Shown here: piece after piece, positions 11,489 to 15,569 of the stretch
Numbering within the stretch: the first letter of the stretch is position 1
Layout: every line of letters starts with the position of its first letter
Source of the DNA: a virus
DNA: 28,166 nucleotides
Virus record (IMG/VR): IMGVR_UViG_3300023174_000525
Span: 1 to 28,166 of that record
Reading direction: 5' to 3' (one strand)
The notes under the pieces: model-generated
Seen by the model: only the letters and a program-made list of their open reading frames with translations
What the model was told of the DNA's origin: nothing
Database searches by the model: none
Translations under genes and position numbers: made by a program

Positions 11489-11644
11489 TTAGTTCTTAAT
11501 ATAATTTCTAAGTTCAGCACCCTCATGATTGTCCATGGAAAGGTAGTACTGTAGCTTCTCGTTCTTTGGATCGTGCTTATGAAGCTCGCGAGCTAGATCA
11601 CGAATCATGTTACGATCCATCTCGGTCTTAAGATGCTTTCCCAC
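11489..11644 (-). CDS. Hypothetical 51-residue helical protein, GTG start
   Basis: Begins (GTG)GKHLKTEMDRNMIRDLAREL and ends ELRNYIKN. GGAG (11654-11651) is 6 nt before GTG 11644. An in-frame ATG at 11656 (giving 55 residues, MEINVGKHL...) overlaps that GGAG, the same decoy pattern seen before other genes here. Highly charged, two helices, no family recognised. It sits between the tRNA-Glu gene and the terminator at 11433-11462. Confidence 0.65.
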   Translation of the reverse strand: MGKHLKTEMDRNMIRDLARELHKHDPKNEKLQYYLSMDNHEGAELRNYIKN

Positions 11645-11661
11645 ATTTATCTCCATGATGT

Positions 11662-11737
11662 TGGTGACTCCAACGGGATTCGAACCCGTATCTCCACCTT
11701 GAGAGGGTGATGACCTGAACCGTTAGTCGATGGAGTC
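11662..11737 (-). tRNA. tRNA-Glu (anticodon CTC)
   Basis: 76 nt with encoded CCA. Acceptor GACTCCA/TGGAGTC pairs fully; anticodon stem CACC/GGTG with loop CTCTCAA gives CUC; T-arm ACGGG-TTCGAAT-CCCGT is canonical. It reads GAG. Confidence 0.93.
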
Positions 11738-11742
11738 ATAAT

Positions 11743-11818
<76 letters not shown>

Positions 11819-11826
11819 TTGTTTAT

Positions 11827-11909
11827 TGGTAGGGACGGTCGGACTCGAACCGACAAGCCAAAGCCGCAGATTTTGAGTCTACTGTGTTTACCAATTTCAC
11901 CACGTCCCC
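11827..11909 (-). tRNA. tRNA-Leu (anticodon CAA)
   Basis: 83 nt, type II with a long variable arm. Acceptor GGGGACG/CGTCCCT, anticodon loop CTCAAAA, T-arm GTCGG-TTCGAGT-CCGAC, encoded CCA. It reads TTG. Confidence 0.93.
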
Positions 11910-11916
11910 ATAATGT

Positions 11917-12004
11917 TGGCGGAAGGGGTAGGATTCGAACCCACGGAGGCTTTCACCTCTCTAGTTTTCAAGACTAGCGCCTTAAGCCTCTCGGCCACCC
12001 TTCC
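11917..12004 (-). tRNA. tRNA-Ser (anticodon TGA)
   Basis: 88 nt, type II. Acceptor GGAAGGG/CCCTTCC, anticodon stem CTAGT/ACTAG with loop CTTGAAA, long variable arm, T-loop TTCGAAT, discriminator G and CCA. First tRNA after the promoter at 12014-12042. Confidence 0.94.
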
Positions 12005-12152
12005 ACAACTTGTATAATACACTCGGCCACTTTCCTATGTAACGATTTTGTAACATGAACAAAAGATCGTTATATAAGTGATCTAGTACTTCTTGTGAAG
12101 ACTCTCTATCTATTCGATCGCTGAGATTCTTCAGTCTTTCATTATCATTCAT
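11982..12152 (-). CDS. Possible small protein running into tRNA-Ser
   Basis: A 56-codon frame (MNDNERLKNLSDRIDRESSQ...) starting 2 nt after the stop of the basic 51-residue gene. The upstream AAGAAG could serve as a weak ribosome site. The first 30 codons look protein-like (helical, charged), but the frame continues through the tRNA promoter and stops inside tRNA-Ser. If it is real, its C-terminus reflects a later join to the tRNA cluster. Low to moderate confidence. Confidence 0.35.
   Translation of the reverse strand: MNDNERLKNLSDRIDRESSQEVLDHLYNDLLFMLQNRYIGKWPSVLYKLWKGGREA
12014..12042 (-). promoter_or_regulatory. Promoter for the Ser-Leu-Lys-Glu tRNA cluster
   Basis: Minus strand TTACAT (12042-12037), 17-bp spacer, TATTAT (12019-12014), 10 bp before the tRNA-Ser 5' end. 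Confidence 0.65.
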
Positions 12153-12154
12153 AC

Positions 12155-12310
12155 TTACTTCTTACGCTTATTCGTACGACCATGGCTTCCGCCAGTCAAT
12201 TTGGCTCGACCACCATTACCAGACTTAGTAAAAGTTGCGCGTGAACCATCTTTATATTCGCGAATATAACCAGATTTATCACGCTTAACAGTCTTAAACT
12301 TGGTAGTCAT
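12155..12310 (-). CDS. 51-residue basic Gly-rich protein
   Basis: MTTKFKTVKRDKSGYIREYK...GNGGRAKLTGGSHGRTNKRKK. Very basic with Gly/Lys/Arg-rich C-terminus and a probable beta-hairpin in the first half (KTVKRDKSGYIREYKDGSR). GGAGAAG lies upstream of ATG 12310, which overlaps the previous stop (TGATG). Nucleic-acid binding is plausible from composition only. No family recognised. Confidence 0.72.
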   Translation of the reverse strand: MTTKFKTVKRDKSGYIREYKDGSRATFTKSGNGGRAKLTGGSHGRTNKRKK

Positions 12311-12471
12311 CACTCTTCTCCAAGAAGCTCTCCGAGATAGTAGTTCTGTTGAAGCGTATGCAGATCTTCGTAGAGCTTATCTAGCTCTTCCATAGAAGCA
12401 CCATCAGCCAGCCTCTTATCTATAAAGCGCGTAAACTCGATGATCGCATTTAGTTCTTCGTCTTCAGTCAT
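12310..12471 (-). CDS. 53-residue acidic helical protein
   Basis: MTEDEELNAIIEFTRFIDKR...EELDKLYEDLHTLQQNYYLGELLGEE: two acidic helices. AGGA lies 8 nt before ATG 12471. It begins 17 nt downstream of tRNA-Tyr and is probably cotranscribed with that tRNA. It is coupled through TGATG to the basic 51-residue gene, an acidic/basic pair that could interact, though this is only an inference from charge. Confidence 0.68.
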   Translation of the reverse strand: MTEDEELNAIIEFTRFIDKRLADGASMEELDKLYEDLHTLQQNYYLGELLGEE

Positions 12472-12487
12472 ATCATCATCCTAGAGT

Positions 12488-12570
12488 TGGTGGAGGGAGT
12501 AGGTAACGCTCCTACACAGCCGAAGCGGGAGATTTACAGTCTCTTGGGCTCACTTTTGCCCAGCCCCTCC
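12488..12570 (-). tRNA. tRNA-Tyr (anticodon GTA) with non-canonical D- and T-loops
   Basis: 83 nt with encoded CCA and a short type II variable arm (CCG-CTT-CGG). Acceptor GGAGGGG/TCCCTCC pairs (one G-U); anticodon loop CTGTAAA gives GUA. The T-arm pairs (GTAGG/CCTAC) but its loop is AGCGTTA instead of TTCRANY, and the D-loop AAAAGTGA lacks the usual GG. The standard D-T elbow contacts therefore cannot form. Either a divergent functional tRNA or one that is decaying. Confidence 0.72.
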
Positions 12571-12580
12571 AAGAATAGCT

Positions 12581-12649
12581 CCGGACACTGTCGCAGTCCG
12601 GCATCGGTTAGTTATTTAAGCGTCTCCCATTGATGCTGCAGCCTGGGAG
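12581..12649 (-). other. Two hairpins in the tRNA-fMet to tRNA-Tyr spacer
   Basis: The 128-base spacer 12571-12698 has no gene. It contains CTCCCA/TGGGAG (12649-12644 and 12629-12624, 14-nt loop with a TGCTGCAGC core) and CCGGAC/GTCCGG (12601-12596 and 12586-12581, 9-nt loop). Neither is followed by a T run, so processing structures or remnants of a lost tRNA are more likely than terminators. Confidence 0.45.
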
Positions 12650-12698
12650 AGAATTATTACCTAACGTCCGAGTCTGTTTCAACGCTAAAGGACCGTTT

Positions 12699-12773
12699 TG
12701 GTTGCAGGAGATGGAATTGAACCATCGACCTCTTGGGTATGAACCAAGCGAGCTGCCACTGCTCCATCCTGCG
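12699..12773 (-). tRNA. Initiator tRNA-fMet (anticodon CAT)
   Basis: 75 nt with encoded CCA. The first acceptor pair is C1 x A72, unpaired, the hallmark of bacterial initiator tRNA that permits formylation; the rest of the acceptor (GCAGGA/TCCTGC) pairs. The D-stem has A11-U24 (GAGC/GCTC). The anticodon stem CTTGG/CCAAG carries two rather than three of the usual G-C pairs, and the loop is TTCATAC. T-arm GATGG-TTCAATT-CCATC. Confidence 0.85.
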
Positions 12774-12779
12774 TTAATC

Positions 12780-12857
12780 TGGCGATCTCTAGTGGATTCG
12801 AACCACTGACCCACAGCTTAGAAGGCTGTTGCTCTGATCCAGCTGAGCTAAGAGACC
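12780..12857 (-). tRNA. tRNA-Arg (anticodon TCT)
   Basis: 78 nt with encoded CCA. Acceptor GGTCTCT/AGAGATC, canonical D-arm, anticodon stem CAGC/GCTG with loop CTTCTAA, T-arm AGTGG-TTCGAAT-CCACT. Its first 10 bases are also the end of the endonuclease gene upstream. It reads AGA. Confidence 0.93.
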
Positions 12858-13171
12858 TTAAGATAATCTTGTAAAACAATAAGATTAAGTTTTTTATTTT
12901 CCAAATAACCTAAAGTAGTATTGCATGGATGACATAAAATACCACGTACTTTATTTGTAGTATGACAGTGATCTATATAGCCACCATCATATTTAGAAAA
13001 CATGATTAAATCTTCTTTGCAAAGAGCACACTGATTATTCTGCTTTTCGTAAAGTTTAATTTGATCTAACTTTGTTAGACCATAACGATTTAATCCATTT
13101 CTGCATGTATTACAAGCAAGGCCTCTTTTATCTGCTGGTAATACACTATTACAGTGTTTACAATGTTTCAT
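12848..13171 (-). CDS. Endonuclease VII-family HNH (homing-type) endonuclease
   Basis: 107 residues. Two zinc-knuckle cysteine sets (C4, C7, C20, C23 and C48, C51, C80, C83) enclose the catalytic beta-beta-alpha core D67-H68-C69-H70 ... RGILCHPCN, the pattern of recombination endonuclease VII relatives and many free-standing phage nucleases. GGAGG lies upstream of ATG 13171. The gene is visibly more AT-rich than its neighbours. Its TAG stop is formed by the conserved T8-A9-G10 of tRNA-Arg. A late promoter inside an RBS-hiding hairpin precedes it. A homing nuclease is the best reading; a resolvase role like T4 gp49 is less likely at this short length. Confidence 0.85.
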   Translation of the reverse strand: MKHCKHCNSVLPADKRGLACNTCRNGLNRYGLTKLDQIKLYEKQNNQCALCKEDLIMFSKYDGGYIDHCHTTNKVRGILCHPCNTTLGYLENKKLNLIVLQDYLKVS

Positions 13172-13173
13172 AT

Positions 13174-13209
13174 AGTTACCTCCGTATGTTTATTTATACA
13201 GAGGTAACT
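13174..13209 (-). promoter_or_regulatory. Late promoter TATAAATA inside an RBS-sequestering hairpin
   Basis: Minus strand TATAAATA (13198-13191) lies between the arms AGTTACCTC (13209-13201) and GAGGTAACT (13182-13174). With one T-G pair and an inner GTAT/ATAC the stem reaches 14 bp with an 8-nt loop. The 3' arm contains the GGAGG ribosome site. Transcripts starting at the late promoter lack the 5' arm. Confidence 0.75.
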
Positions 13210-13225
13210 CTTGACTCTAGAGCAA

Positions 13226-13390
13226 CTACTGCTCCCAAGATATAGTACACATACCAGTCTTCTCGTTCTCTATGTATGTGTACGCTATCCCGTCTTTCTT
13301 AAGAGATCTGGCTAGTGGAACCATGCCCGACTTAGTCCAAAACTCAGCCTTATACTTTATCTTATCGTAGGAGTACTTTACTTTCTTCAT
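13226..13390 (-). CDS. Hypothetical 54-residue protein
   Basis: MKKVKYSYDKIKYKAEFWTK...GIAYTYIENEKTGMCTISWEQ. Basic N-terminus and probable beta-rich C-terminus. Its ATG overlaps the upstream stop (ATGA at 13390-13387), so translation is coupled to the 53-residue gene. The product shape (short strand, helix with PLARSLKKDG, two strands) recalls small phage proteins of unknown role. No terminator is evident between it and the endonuclease gene. Confidence 0.68.
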   Translation of the reverse strand: MKKVKYSYDKIKYKAEFWTKSGMVPLARSLKKDGIAYTYIENEKTGMCTISWEQ

Positions 13391-13548
13391 GCAGCGATCT
13401 TAGCCTGTGGCTTGGCCATGAAGCGCAGCTGAGCGGTCTTGCCGTAGCGATGACGCATGTTGTCCCAGTACTTCCACGCAGAGTACTCGTTGTTGAAGTC
13501 TGCGCGAGCCAGAACCATACCGTTACTCTCGACTACTACCGTGTACAT
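13387..13548 (-). CDS. Hypothetical 53-residue protein
   Basis: MYTVVVESNGMVLARADFNN...AWKYWDNMRHRYGKTAQLRF. It opens with a beta-hairpin, followed by a helix with aromatic residues and a strand. GGAG (13558-13555) lies 6 nt before ATG 13548, and an upstream ATG overlaps that site in another frame. First gene after a strong TTGACA/TAGAAT promoter (13573-13601). Function not recognised. Confidence 0.72.
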   Translation of the reverse strand: MYTVVVESNGMVLARADFNNEYSAWKYWDNMRHRYGKTAQLRFMAKPQAKIAA

Positions 13549-13572
13549 GTCGTTCTCCATAAGTTATAAGTC

Positions 13573-13601
13573 ATTCTATCACGTATTCATGCAGGTGTCA
13601 A
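13573..13601 (-). promoter_or_regulatory. Sigma70-type promoter for the 13.5 kb mini-genes
   Basis: Minus strand TTGACA (13601-13596), 17-bp spacer, extended -10 TGA-TAGAAT (-10 at 13578-13573). It overlaps the 3' end of the GNAT gene. Confidence 0.82.
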
Positions 13602-14030
13602 CAACTTTTTTAACCTAATCGCATCTTTTCCGTTCTCGTAGTACTTTGGAAAGATGCCGTACTGTTCAAATCCAAATCTCTTGTAGATGTTAAGAGCTCT
13701 CTCGTTGTCTTGTTCTACTTCTAAGAAGAGCTCTTCTAACTCTCTCTCACGCGCGTCTCTCTCGAAGTCTTGCAAGAAAGATAAGAGGATTCCTCTCTTA
13801 CGAGCGTCAGGCATTACACCGACACTGTATAGTCTCGCTCTCTTACTCGTAAAGAGATACACACCTATGCAGTAAGCGACTGGAAGTGCATCTTCAAAGA
13901 TAGTGACTCGACTTCGATTGCTCCTCAAGTGCATGAGGAACTCTTTTCGCGTGATGCGCTCGGTCTCGAATGAGACTGTGTGCATTCCTACTAGAACATC
14001 GATGTCACTATCACGTGCGTGTCTTATCAT
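13587..14030 (-). CDS. GNAT-family N-acetyltransferase, RimI-like
   Basis: 147 residues, a complete single GNAT domain. Strand beta4 and the acetyl-CoA loop are clear: ARLYSVGVMPDARKRGILL at about residues 72-90, with the R-x-R-G pyrophosphate-binding turn, followed by EELFLEVEQDNERALNIYKR and FGFEQYGIFPKYY, the order seen in RimI-type protein or peptide acetyltransferases. The substrate is unknown; candidates are a host protein amino group or a small amine. The ribosome site before ATG 14030 is weak (AAGAAG). The gene follows tRNA-Trp by 18 bases and probably shares its transcript. Confidence 0.85.
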   Translation of the reverse strand: MIRHARDSDIDVLVGMHTVSFETERITRKEFLMHLRSNRSRVTIFEDALPVAYCIGVYLFTSKRARLYSVGVMPDARKRGILLSFLQDFERDARERELEELFLEVEQDNERALNIYKRFGFEQYGIFPKYYENGKDAIRLKKLLTPA

Positions 14031-14048
14031 GATTGACTTCTTAAAGAA

Positions 14049-14122
14049 TGGCGAAGGTGTGGAGGATCGAACTCCAGATTGCGGTTTTGGAGACCGCCGT
14101 GTTACCGCTACACTACACCGAC
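14049..14122 (-). tRNA. tRNA-Trp (anticodon CCA) with a defective acceptor stem
   Basis: 74 nt with encoded CCA. Anticodon stem GCGGT/ACCGC with loop CTCCAAA, D-stem GTGT/ACAC, T-arm TGGAG-TTCGATC-CTCCA are all good. The acceptor 5' strand GTCGGTG against CACCTTC leaves mismatches at 2-71 (T-T) and 3-70 (C-T). The mismatched 5' end abuts the degenerate tRNA next to it, as if joined by deletion. Confidence 0.8.
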
Positions 14123-14176
14123 AAGAGGCTGGACTCGAACCAGCGACTAAAAGTTCTACCGCTGAACTACTCTCTA
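14121..14176 (-). pseudogene. tRNA-like remnant lacking the anticodon arm
   Basis: 56 nt. A good D-arm (TAGTTCAGCGGTAGAAC) is followed by only 8 nt (TTTTAGTC) and then a perfect T-arm GCTGG-TTCGAGT-CCAGC. The anticodon arm is absent, the acceptor TAGAGAG/CTCTTGT pairs at only the five inner positions, and no CCA is encoded. It cannot decode. A deleted tRNA gene is the simplest reading. Confidence 0.7.
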
Positions 14177-14212
14177 CGCCAAACTGAATTGGTAGCTGTG
14201 GTCGTCACCGCA

Positions 14213-14281
14213 TGATACTATGGGATTCGAACCCATTGCTCGACCTTTCAGCCAGGAAGTCCCCCATGCTTCTCAGTATCG
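14213..14281 (-). pseudogene. tRNA-like element with irregular anticodon arm
   Basis: About 69 nt. Inner acceptor GATACT/AGTATC, D-stem GAAG/CTTC with a G-rich loop, and T-arm ATGGG-TTCGAAT-CCCAT are clear. The interval between D- and T-arms is 19 nt, too short for a normal anticodon arm and variable loop, and no CCA follows. An outer pair GGTAGC (14286-14281) / GCTACC (14196-14191) can extend it. Either a decayed tRNA or a structured RNA derived from one. Confidence 0.55.
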
Positions 14282-14290
14282 CTACCAAAC

Positions 14291-14368
14291 TGGCTCGGCG
14301 AGTAGGATTTGAACCTACCTTATTCTCGGTTAACAGCCGAGCGCGCTCACCTAGAGTGCTATCGCCGA
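14291..14368 (-). tRNA. tRNA-Asn (anticodon GTT)
   Basis: 78 nt with encoded CCA. Acceptor TCGGCGA/TCGCCGA fully paired, anticodon stem CTCGG/CCGAG with loop CTGTTAA, T-arm GTAGG-TTCAAAT-CCTAC. The D-stem has one A-C mismatch. Its first 10 bases overlap the end of the HNH gene. Confidence 0.88.
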
Positions 14369-14805
14369 ATAATTTCTTTCCAAGATAGAGCTTTACTTTC
14401 ATCGTATGCTCTATCTTTTCCTTTCTTGCAATTTTCTCTTACTGGAAGATATTGAAGATTATCTTGATGGTGTAACCCACCTTTAGCTAAGGCTACTATA
14501 TGATCTACGTGATACCCGCTAGGACAATTCTCATATATCTTCTTAATTAAAGCAAGATCACTACTTTCAACTATTGCGTTATATTTTCTAGCGCGCCAAG
14601 CATAAACATTGGCTTTATTCTGAGCTTTCTTATGTTCTTCAGAAACTCTACCACGTTTATCTGCAGCAGCTATAGTTCTTAATCTAGCTAATTCTTTTTG
14701 TTCTTCAGTTGGCTTCCAGCCCGGTTTACCTTTACAATGATGACCATTTTTTTCAAAATGTTCTTTCAAAGATTTAGATATTTTTTCGTTTTTATGCATG
14801 ATCAT
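14359..14805 (-). CDS. HNH homing-type endonuclease with N-terminal DNA-binding region
   Basis: 148 residues. The C-terminal HNH core is GYHVDHIVALAKGGLHHQDN (about 103-122) followed by LQYLPVRENCKKG, with DH, H and N in the expected spacing. The N-terminal half is basic, with a NUMOD3-like stretch (KISKSLKEH...KGKPGWKPTEEQ...DKRGRVSEEHK), typical of phage homing endonucleases. GGAG lies 4 nt before ATG 14805; a second ATG is two codons on. AT-rich relative to its surroundings. The TAG stop is the T8-A9-G10 of tRNA-Asn, matching the other endonuclease gene. Late promoter and hairpin upstream. Confidence 0.87.
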   Translation of the reverse strand: MIMHKNEKISKSLKEHFEKNGHHCKGKPGWKPTEEQKELARLRTIAAADKRGRVSEEHKKAQNKANVYAWRARKYNAIVESSDLALIKKIYENCPSGYHVDHIVALAKGGLHHQDNLQYLPVRENCKKGKDRAYDESKALSWKEIIRR

Positions 14806-14832
14806 AAGTCTCCAACCTATGATCTATTTATA
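14800..14832 (-). promoter_or_regulatory. Late promoter TATAAATA abutting a start-codon hairpin
   Basis: Minus strand TATAAATA (14832-14825) is followed directly by GATCATAGGT-TGGAG-ACTTATGATC (14824-14800), a 10-bp stem (one G-U) with GGAG in the 5-nt loop and the start codon in the 3' arm. Late transcripts should begin inside the 5' arm and free the start. Confidence 0.72.
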
Positions 14833-14842
14833 ACAAATGCTA

Positions 14843-14866
14843 GCTCTACCGCTGAGCTATCGAGGA
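14843..14866 (-). pseudogene. 5' fragment of a tRNA (acceptor strand and D-arm)
   Basis: TCCTCGA followed by TA and a perfect D-arm GCTC-AGCGGTA-GAGC, exactly as at the start of a tRNA. The anticodon arm, T-arm and matching 3' acceptor strand (TCGAGGA) are absent; the late promoter of the HNH gene follows 10 bases on. Probably a tRNA truncated when the HNH gene arrived. Confidence 0.6.
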
Positions 14867-14874
14867 ATAATTTA

Positions 14875-14993
14875 TACTCTCAAGGATGCACGTGGGGATG
14901 ATCAGTCCCTAGTCGACTCGAACGACCTTTTGTGCCGGAACACATATCTTCCAATGCCCACTAGCCTCGTGGGCACGTGCATCCGTGAGAGCA
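14875..14993 (-). ncRNA. Structured RNA: 20-bp stem enclosing T-arm-like and other hairpins
   Basis: Arms at 14993-14974 and 14894-14875 pair over 20 positions (18 Watson-Crick, one G-U, one mismatch). The 79 bases between hold, in order on the minus strand: GCCCAC-GAGGCTA-GTGGGC, a hairpin around TGTGTTCCGGCACA, a T-arm-like GGTCG-TTCGAGT-CGACT (14927-14911), and GGGA-CTGATCA-TCCC. It is not a standard tRNA: no 7-bp acceptor follows the T-arm and there is no CCA. It fills the only long non-coding gap here, between the secreted-protein gene and the tRNA fragment. Identity unknown. Confidence 0.5.
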
Positions 14994-14998
14994 TAAAC

Positions 14999-15295
14999 TT
15001 AATAACAGACTCGCGAGGCGTGCTGATTGCCCCAACTATCGTACCAATACTCTAAGTTGCACACCGGAGCCGGCCGATAATACACTGGAGGAGGTGAGTA
15101 GTACATCGGAGCGGGTACGTACTCCTGCCTGTAGTAAGGCTGAGGCTGTACGTACACGCGAGGCTGCATAGCCTCATTTATGATAATACCACCTATGACT
15201 CCACCGAGGACGTATAGTCCTGCATTATCGCGAGCTTCAACGGGTGAACACAACGCGCCAGTGATGAGCAGAGCAGCCAGAGTCTTCTTCAACAT
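14999..15295 (-). CDS. Secreted Tyr/Pro-rich protein with signal peptide
   Basis: 98 residues from ATG 15295 (GGAG 6 nt upstream; the ATG at 15307 overlaps the ribosome site). MLKKTLAALLITGALCSPVEA|RD is a Sec signal with probable cleavage after VEA; the Cys does not sit in a proper lipobox. A Gly-rich hydrophobic stretch follows (GLYVLGGVIGGIIINEA), possibly a second membrane segment or glycine zipper, then a Tyr/Pro/Gln-rich tail ending with two Cys. It would act in the periplasm or envelope. Own TGTACA-class promoter (15326-15366), so early expression is expected. Family uncertain. Confidence 0.75.
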   Translation of the reverse strand: MLKKTLAALLITGALCSPVEARDNAGLYVLGGVIGGIIINEAMQPRVYVQPQPYYRQEYVPAPMYYSPPPVYYRPAPVCNLEYWYDSWGNQHASRVCY

Positions 15296-15325
15296 CTTGT
15301 TCTCCATGATCATCACTATATATCT

Positions 15326-15366
15326 ATTCTATCATATTGGAGATCAAATGTACACAACTTTATTCG
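15326..15366 (-). promoter_or_regulatory. TGTACA-class promoter with CGAATAAA box
   Basis: Minus strand CGAATAAA (15366-15359), TGTACA (15354-15349), 17-bp spacer, extended -10 TGA-TAGAAT (-10 at 15331-15326). Confidence 0.8.
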
Positions 15367-15569
15367 CTATCTGAGAAGGTGGCGTAGATGCCGGCCTCAA
15401 ATCCCGGAATATCTTTATGCGTCTTAGAGATCTTAACTTCATACGTAGACTCTATGACATAGTCTTCGTGCCTAAAAGTAACGTTAGCGTGTTCTGGCAC
15501 GTCAGATGTAGCGATGTAGTTGGCGATCTGCTTATAGACTTTGTATGGAATCGAAATATATGCCATCAT
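15360..15569 (-). CDS. Hypothetical 69-residue protein
   Basis: MMAYISIPYKVYKQIANYIA..., then beta-rich (ANVTFRHEDYVIESTYEVKI). ATGA overlap with the upstream stop (15569-15566); the second ATG at 15566 has the better-placed GAGG. No family recognised. Its last codons overlap the upstream element of the next promoter. Confidence 0.68.
   Translation of the reverse strand: MMAYISIPYKVYKQIANYIATSDVPEHANVTFRHEDYVIESTYEVKISKTHKDIPGFEAGIYATFSDSE

Follow-up and report, generated by a model that had tools for sequence, protein, structure and literature searches.

Several unrelated families of homing nucleases repeatedly insert at or into the tRNA genes of phages and borrow the first stop codon that the tRNA offers, as is evident from hundreds of phage loci compared here. 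The analysis started from a stretch of viral DNA of 28,166 nucleotides (the window), in which two nuclease genes end inside the tRNA genes that follow them. Both are probably cassettes of the free-standing homing endonuclease type that reside in an array of phage tRNA genes, and their shared stop at T8-A9-G10 of the tRNA is what a wider pattern yields in one frame out of three. An odd overlap is thus turned into a general rule for the colonization of phage tRNA arrays by homing nucleases, which may help explain the abundance of nucleases, tRNA fragments, and odd duplicate tRNAs in large arrays. By fusion to the end of an essential-looking gene, a cassette would be shielded from deletion at no cost to the tRNA.

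Anatomy of the two nuclease genes

The tRNA array, as called by ARAGORN, occupies the minus strand and comprises tRNAs for Glu, Lys, Leu, Ser, Met, Arg, Trp, and Asn in addition to the two nuclease genes. The features of the two cassettes are as follows:

12780..12857, minus strand: tRNA-Arg(TCT), called by ARAGORN, Rfam 65.1 bits; overlaps the EndoVII-like gene by 10 nt
12848..13171, minus strand: EndoVII-like nuclease gene, 107 aa; TAG stop at 12848-12850, positions 8-10 of tRNA-Arg
13175..13208, minus strand: predicted hairpin (-20 kcal/mol, z -5.95; stem of 14 bp) that covers GGAGG, the ribosome-binding site of the EndoVII-like gene, and contains its late promoter
13191..13198, minus strand: TATAAATA, T4-type late promoter -10 element of the EndoVII-like gene
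14291..14368, minus strand: tRNA-Asn(GTT), called by ARAGORN, Rfam 50.8 bits, intact; overlaps the HNH gene by 10 nt
14359..14805, minus strand: HNH nuclease gene, 148 aa; TAG stop at 14359-14361, positions 8-10 of tRNA-Asn
14800..14824, minus strand: predicted hairpin GATCATA..TATGATC (-12.2 kcal/mol, z -3.3) spanning the HNH start codon and ribosome-binding site
14825..14832, minus strand: TATAAATA, T4-type late promoter -10 element of the HNH gene
14830..14866, minus strand: truncated tRNA 5′ half (acceptor strand and D-arm, apparently as far as the anticodon loop TTGTTAT), directly upstream of the HNH gene

The initial annotation held that both genes use T8-A9-G10 of the following tRNA as their stop codon and overlap this tRNA by 10 nt, and this is confirmed by the ARAGORN calls and the ORF ends (...AAG GTC TCT TAG for the EndoVII-like gene and ...ATT CGG CGA TAG for the HNH gene). 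Both tRNAs look intact, since their Rfam scores of 65.1 and 50.8 bits compare with a cut-off of 29 bits. The EndoVII-like product contains an Endonuclease_7 domain (Pfam, E = 5e-17) and matches the structure of T4 EndoVII (1e7d, E = 8e-12). The HNH product matches PHROG HNH/EndoVII families (E down to 1.9e-9) and Cas8f-HNH (0.0036), and the residues of its HNH region are conserved among the 19 relatives compared. A conserved nuclease domain, by which free-standing homing endonuclease genes are recognized, is therefore present in the window, and nuclease activity is predicted for both proteins. The two are not detectably related to each other, in agreement with the initial annotation: homology was rejected because BLASTP gave no match between them and hhalign a Prob of 0.5%. 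A group I intron homing endonuclease residing in a tRNA was rejected as well, the downstream tRNA being intact and no Rfam intron family matching at 11500-15400.

The minus strand also holds a tRNA-Tyr(GTA)-like sequence with an abnormal T-loop at 12486-12571 (called by neither ARAGORN nor Rfam) and a tRNA-like sequence at 14213-14283 with the acceptor GATACTG/TAGTATC and a normal T-arm (uncalled by ARAGORN). A further tRNA-like gene at 14124-14173 has no anticodon arm (Rfam tRNA, 30.9 bits) and is possibly a scar of anticodon cutting.

The T4 late promoter core TATAAATA occurs only twice in the 28 kb, once in front of either nuclease gene at a distance of about 20 nt from its start and in or beside a hairpin, and T4-type late transcription presumably operates in this virus. 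In folding predictions, removal of the 5′ arm weakens the hairpin of the EndoVII-like gene from -20 to -1.5 kcal/mol and that of the HNH gene from -12.2 to -2.9 kcal/mol; as modeled, each hairpin covers the ribosome-binding site when the transcript is long, and little of it persists when transcription starts at the late promoter. The same scheme of late promoter and hairpin has been described for I-TevI, I-TevII, I-TevIII, SegB, and Aeh1 MobE (PMC2988022). The window genes thus resemble T4 SegB and other free-standing T4 homing endonucleases (GIY-YIG Seg and HNH Mob), both in this control and in the location of a nuclease in a tRNA array (PMC2988022). SegB lies directly 5′ of tRNA-Arg at a distance of 5 nt; unlike the window genes, it encodes a GIY-YIG protein, has a stop codon of its own, and ends short of the tRNA, and, unlike the window HNH gene, it has no split tRNA upstream in the sequence read.

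Each of the two cassettes is a small unit that combines a T4-type late promoter and a hairpin with a nuclease ORF fused straight onto a tRNA 5′ end. The hairpin would block translation of early read-through transcripts, the nuclease would presumably cut phage DNA that has no cassette, somewhere in the tRNA region, at co-infection, and repair would then copy the cassette into the cut DNA. As the cassette ends at or just before the tRNA, its ORF reads in and stops at the first in-frame stop, which is T8-A9-G10 in one frame but lies in the D-loop or further on in the other two, and the tRNA stays intact.

Genes that run into phage tRNAs

Two arbitrary convenience samples of phage tRNA loci were surveyed for genes encoding 80 aa or more whose ends fall within a tRNA (overlapping) or up to 15 nt before it (abutting), and all counts from this survey hold among the matches listed. 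Nuclease-like genes, classified by PHROG/Pfam for the most part and by motif reading for the rest, accounted for 17 of 31 overlapping but only 11 of 82 abutting genes (p = 1.6e-5), an approximately 7-fold over-representation by odds ratio; under a stricter count that dropped the protein backed by motif reading alone, the enrichment was still seen (p = 1e-4), and p-values over loci are optimistic because many related loci share ancestry. HNH, GIY-YIG, EndoVII, and PD-(D/E)XK-like nucleases were all found to run into tRNAs. Among these matches, 8 of the 17 overlapping nucleases had the promoter core TATAAATA no more than 90 nt upstream, versus 1 of the 96 other genes (p = 4e-7).

The position of the stop is a different matter. 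It had been suggested that T8-A9-G10 is itself under selection, an exact end there providing a stop without harm to the tRNA. Indeed, besides both window genes, the EndoVII gene of locus L377 and several HNH relatives end at positions 8-10, the latter in tRNA-Asn (L003, L004, and L023), tRNA-Met (L013, L015, and L017), tRNA-Lys (L034), and tRNA-Pro (L288). However, the stop offsets of the 17 overlapping nucleases among the matches listed are 10 (six cases, one of them at 11), 15, 18, 21, 23, 23, 24, 24, 37, 38, 38, and 57, and fall 7/6/4 into the three frames (p = 0.61 against one third). Since all three frames are used equally, positions 8-10 are simply the first stop in one of them; TAG occupies these positions in 567 of 1134 phage tRNAs, and with about half of tRNAs carrying it, one frame in three often meets TAG. 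Likewise, of 113 listed genes that end in the interval from -15 to +70 relative to a tRNA start, 12 do so at +10/11, half of which (6/12) are non-nuclease genes, and the excess of nucleases at this point (6/28 versus 6/85 for others) reaches only p = 0.07. Selection for this particular stop is accordingly highly unlikely, and the survey proposed in the initial annotation, as carried out on these two samples, turned up an enrichment of nucleases among tRNA-overlapping genes rather than a clear one at position 10. The two-of-two coincidence in the window is notable without being astronomically unlikely, and the strong signal is the nuclease excess.

Phage T5 offers an instructive parallel, as its nucleases hegC, hegD, and T5.069 (HNH_3 and T5orf172 domains) also lie in a tRNA array and stop inside the next tRNA, at positions 14, 23, and 24, respectively. 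A homologue of T5.069 in Klebsiella phage Sugarland (41% identity), likewise at tRNA-Asn, enters in another frame and stops at position 10 instead of 24, which speaks further against a special role of T8-A9-G10. The T5 nucleases differ from those of the window in family and stop position, and no TATAAATA is present in the leaders read. Their presence or absence varies among T5-like phages, and T5 and its relatives would be a laboratory system for direct insertion tests.

Occupied and empty sites

Occupied and empty versions of the same site are available in other phages. In L363, a promoter and an HNH ORF lie between tRNA-Tyr and tRNA-Asp; in its empty counterpart L433, the tRNA-Tyr ending in CCCAC is followed by a 3-nt spacer (CTT) and then by tRNA-Asp, and the same two tRNAs are adjacent with no gene between them in S-PM2 and S-CREM1. 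Similarly, T5.069 lies between tRNA-Cys and tRNA-Asn in T5, and Salmonella phage smaug has an 8-nt spacer at this site. The inserts in L363 and at T5.069 have no stop of their own and take it from the tRNA. These pairs (L433 versus L363 and smaug versus T5) show insertion, not later deletion, in those cases, and the overlap arrived with the insertion because only 3-8 nt separate the neighbors at the empty sites.

An alternative is compaction, in which deletions in dense tRNA arrays remove spacers and neighboring genes lose their stop, the C-termini of nucleases being tolerant of this. Genes of all kinds do crowd at -3 to -8 of tRNA starts among the matches listed, and CpeT, UvdE, and carbamoyltransferase genes overlap tRNAs too. 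Nevertheless, compaction is an unlikely explanation, considering the short spacers at the empty sites, the approximately 7-fold excess of nucleases among the listed matches, and the cognate 5′ tRNA fragments found upstream of some nucleases (see below), which deletion leaves unexplained.

An insertion mechanism directed to tRNA 5′ ends, as initially proposed, is thus substantiated in other phages by last codons and stops that come from the tRNA and by the empty sites, which place the inserted nuclease cassette 3-8 nt from the tRNA 5′ end. For the window itself, no uninserted close relative was found among the phage relatives compared, and the suggested comparison with nuclease-free phages was informative only elsewhere. 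DNA polymerase relatives (L072-L151) and glycosyltransferase relatives (L070/L071) were considered as uninserted relatives and rejected, the former being without the array and the latter without tRNAs. We therefore infer by analogy that the window genes arrived by insertion. The statement that the same junction arose twice proved right in kind and too narrow in number, as it has formed repeatedly, with different tRNAs and with nucleases of unrelated families; the junction of the HNH gene with tRNA-Asn is an old family trait because it is common to the relatives L003, L004, and L023.

tRNA fragments and the relatives of the two nucleases

Upstream of the window HNH gene, the tRNA 5′ half TCCTCGATAGCTCAGCGGTAGAGCTAGCATTTGTTAT ends at about the anticodon loop and runs into the promoter. 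It scores 19 against tRNA-Asn halves and 20 against tRNA-Val halves, and is read as the remnant of a split tRNA, probably a tRNA-Asn. Neither this remnant nor the hairpins at the late promoters were noticed in the initial annotation. A 3′ partner (TCGAGGA) was found nowhere else in the tRNA region of the window, and no tRNA fragment was seen upstream of the EndoVII-like gene. Just upstream of the split tRNA, at approximately 14880-15000, lies a long imperfect inverted repeat (ATGCTCTCACGGATGCACGTG...CACGTGCATCCTTGAGAGTAT) that encloses a T-arm-like motif.

The HNH gene would thus lie between a broken 5′ half, probably of tRNA-Asn, and an intact tRNA-Asn, as if a tRNA had been split near the anticodon and restored downstream. 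The same layout of a 5′ fragment, a nuclease, and an intact tRNA of the same isotype is found for an EndoVII gene in L377 (Pro), for HNH types in L313 (Gln), L373 and L303 (Leu), and L409 (Arg), and for PD-(D/E)XK types in L221 (Ser), L141 (Asn), and L153 (Met), the nuclease assignment of L141 and L153 being by sequence reading. Fragment and downstream tRNA agree in isotype in 11 of 19 cases, against a null mean of 2.2 and a maximum of 8 in 20000 draws, and several clear fragments end near positions 31-38 when the sequences are read. These features suggest that the tRNA was broken at its anticodon loop and made whole again by a 5′ half that the cassette brought along. A natural cleave-and-rescue system of this kind, in which the anticodon loop is cut, the cassette's own 5′ half rebuilds the tRNA downstream, and the old half is left upstream, would specifically account for the insertion of the window HNH gene, and we regard it as possible, with somewhat less than even confidence. 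On the other hand, no empty site was found for any fragment-bearing cassette, the insertions at L363 and T5.069 left no fragment, and the fragments are short. The idea that the carried 5′ half has a recoded D-arm as a mark of cleavage resistance was rejected as not significant (p = 0.14). It is equally tentative that phage tRNA genes at large are recurrently parasitized by homing cassettes that act by cleave-and-rescue and encode nucleases of several unrelated folds; these cassettes would insert at the anticodon loop, supply a new 5′ half, and leave the old half as a scar.

No description of such phage tRNA cassettes was found in the literature searched, which covered few subscription journals. 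The nearest known parallel is provided by mobile ORFs of fungal mitochondria (Allomyces atp6; Glomus atp6, atp9, cox2, and nad3), where an endonuclease ORF brings a duplicate gene end and the native end is displaced as a remnant (PMC3630166). Those cases concern the C-terminal ends of mitochondrial protein genes, whereas a phage cassette would duplicate the 5′ half of a tRNA. A 99-aa ORF of no known function in L164 (2301-2600, minus strand) is arranged like the nuclease cassettes, with a tRNA-Leu 5′ fragment on one side and an intact tRNA-Leu on the other.

The closer relatives of the HNH protein lie almost all in large phage tRNA arrays. A tRNA-Asn is adjacent, on either side, in 25 of 32 loci of this family, in which Asn makes up 4.8% of tRNAs, a count over related loci with some tRNAs recognized solely by their anticodon-loop pattern; on a simple reading, the tRNA-Asn region is the homing site of the family. 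The closest relative of the EndoVII-like protein is that of L377 (46% identity), whose stop occupies positions 8-10 of tRNA-Pro downstream of the tRNA-Pro fragment, and most EndoVII relatives from the sequence search are located away from tRNAs. F-CphI of cyanophage S-PM2, a small free-standing homing endonuclease of the EndoVII type, is 36.6% identical to the EndoVII-like protein of the window. The HNH gene of ACG-2014f and the EndoVII gene of RB11-B were rejected as further cases, neither being in a tRNA array.

tRNA-Arg is found directly 3′ of three nuclease families, namely EndoVII (window, 12780-12857), HNH (L363, 5354-5427), and GIY-YIG SegB (T4, 71173-71247), with a TCT anticodon in the window and L363, and may be a second favored nuclease target. 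In L003 (3140-3222), the tRNA-Asn downstream of the HNH gene contains a 7-bp tandem duplication (GTTAATC) in its anticodon loop. In L309 (approximately 4225) and L320 (approximately 4141), HNH relatives are followed by a 3′ tRNA fragment (TCCTACCGGGAGCACCA) and no whole tRNA, a mirror-image junction.
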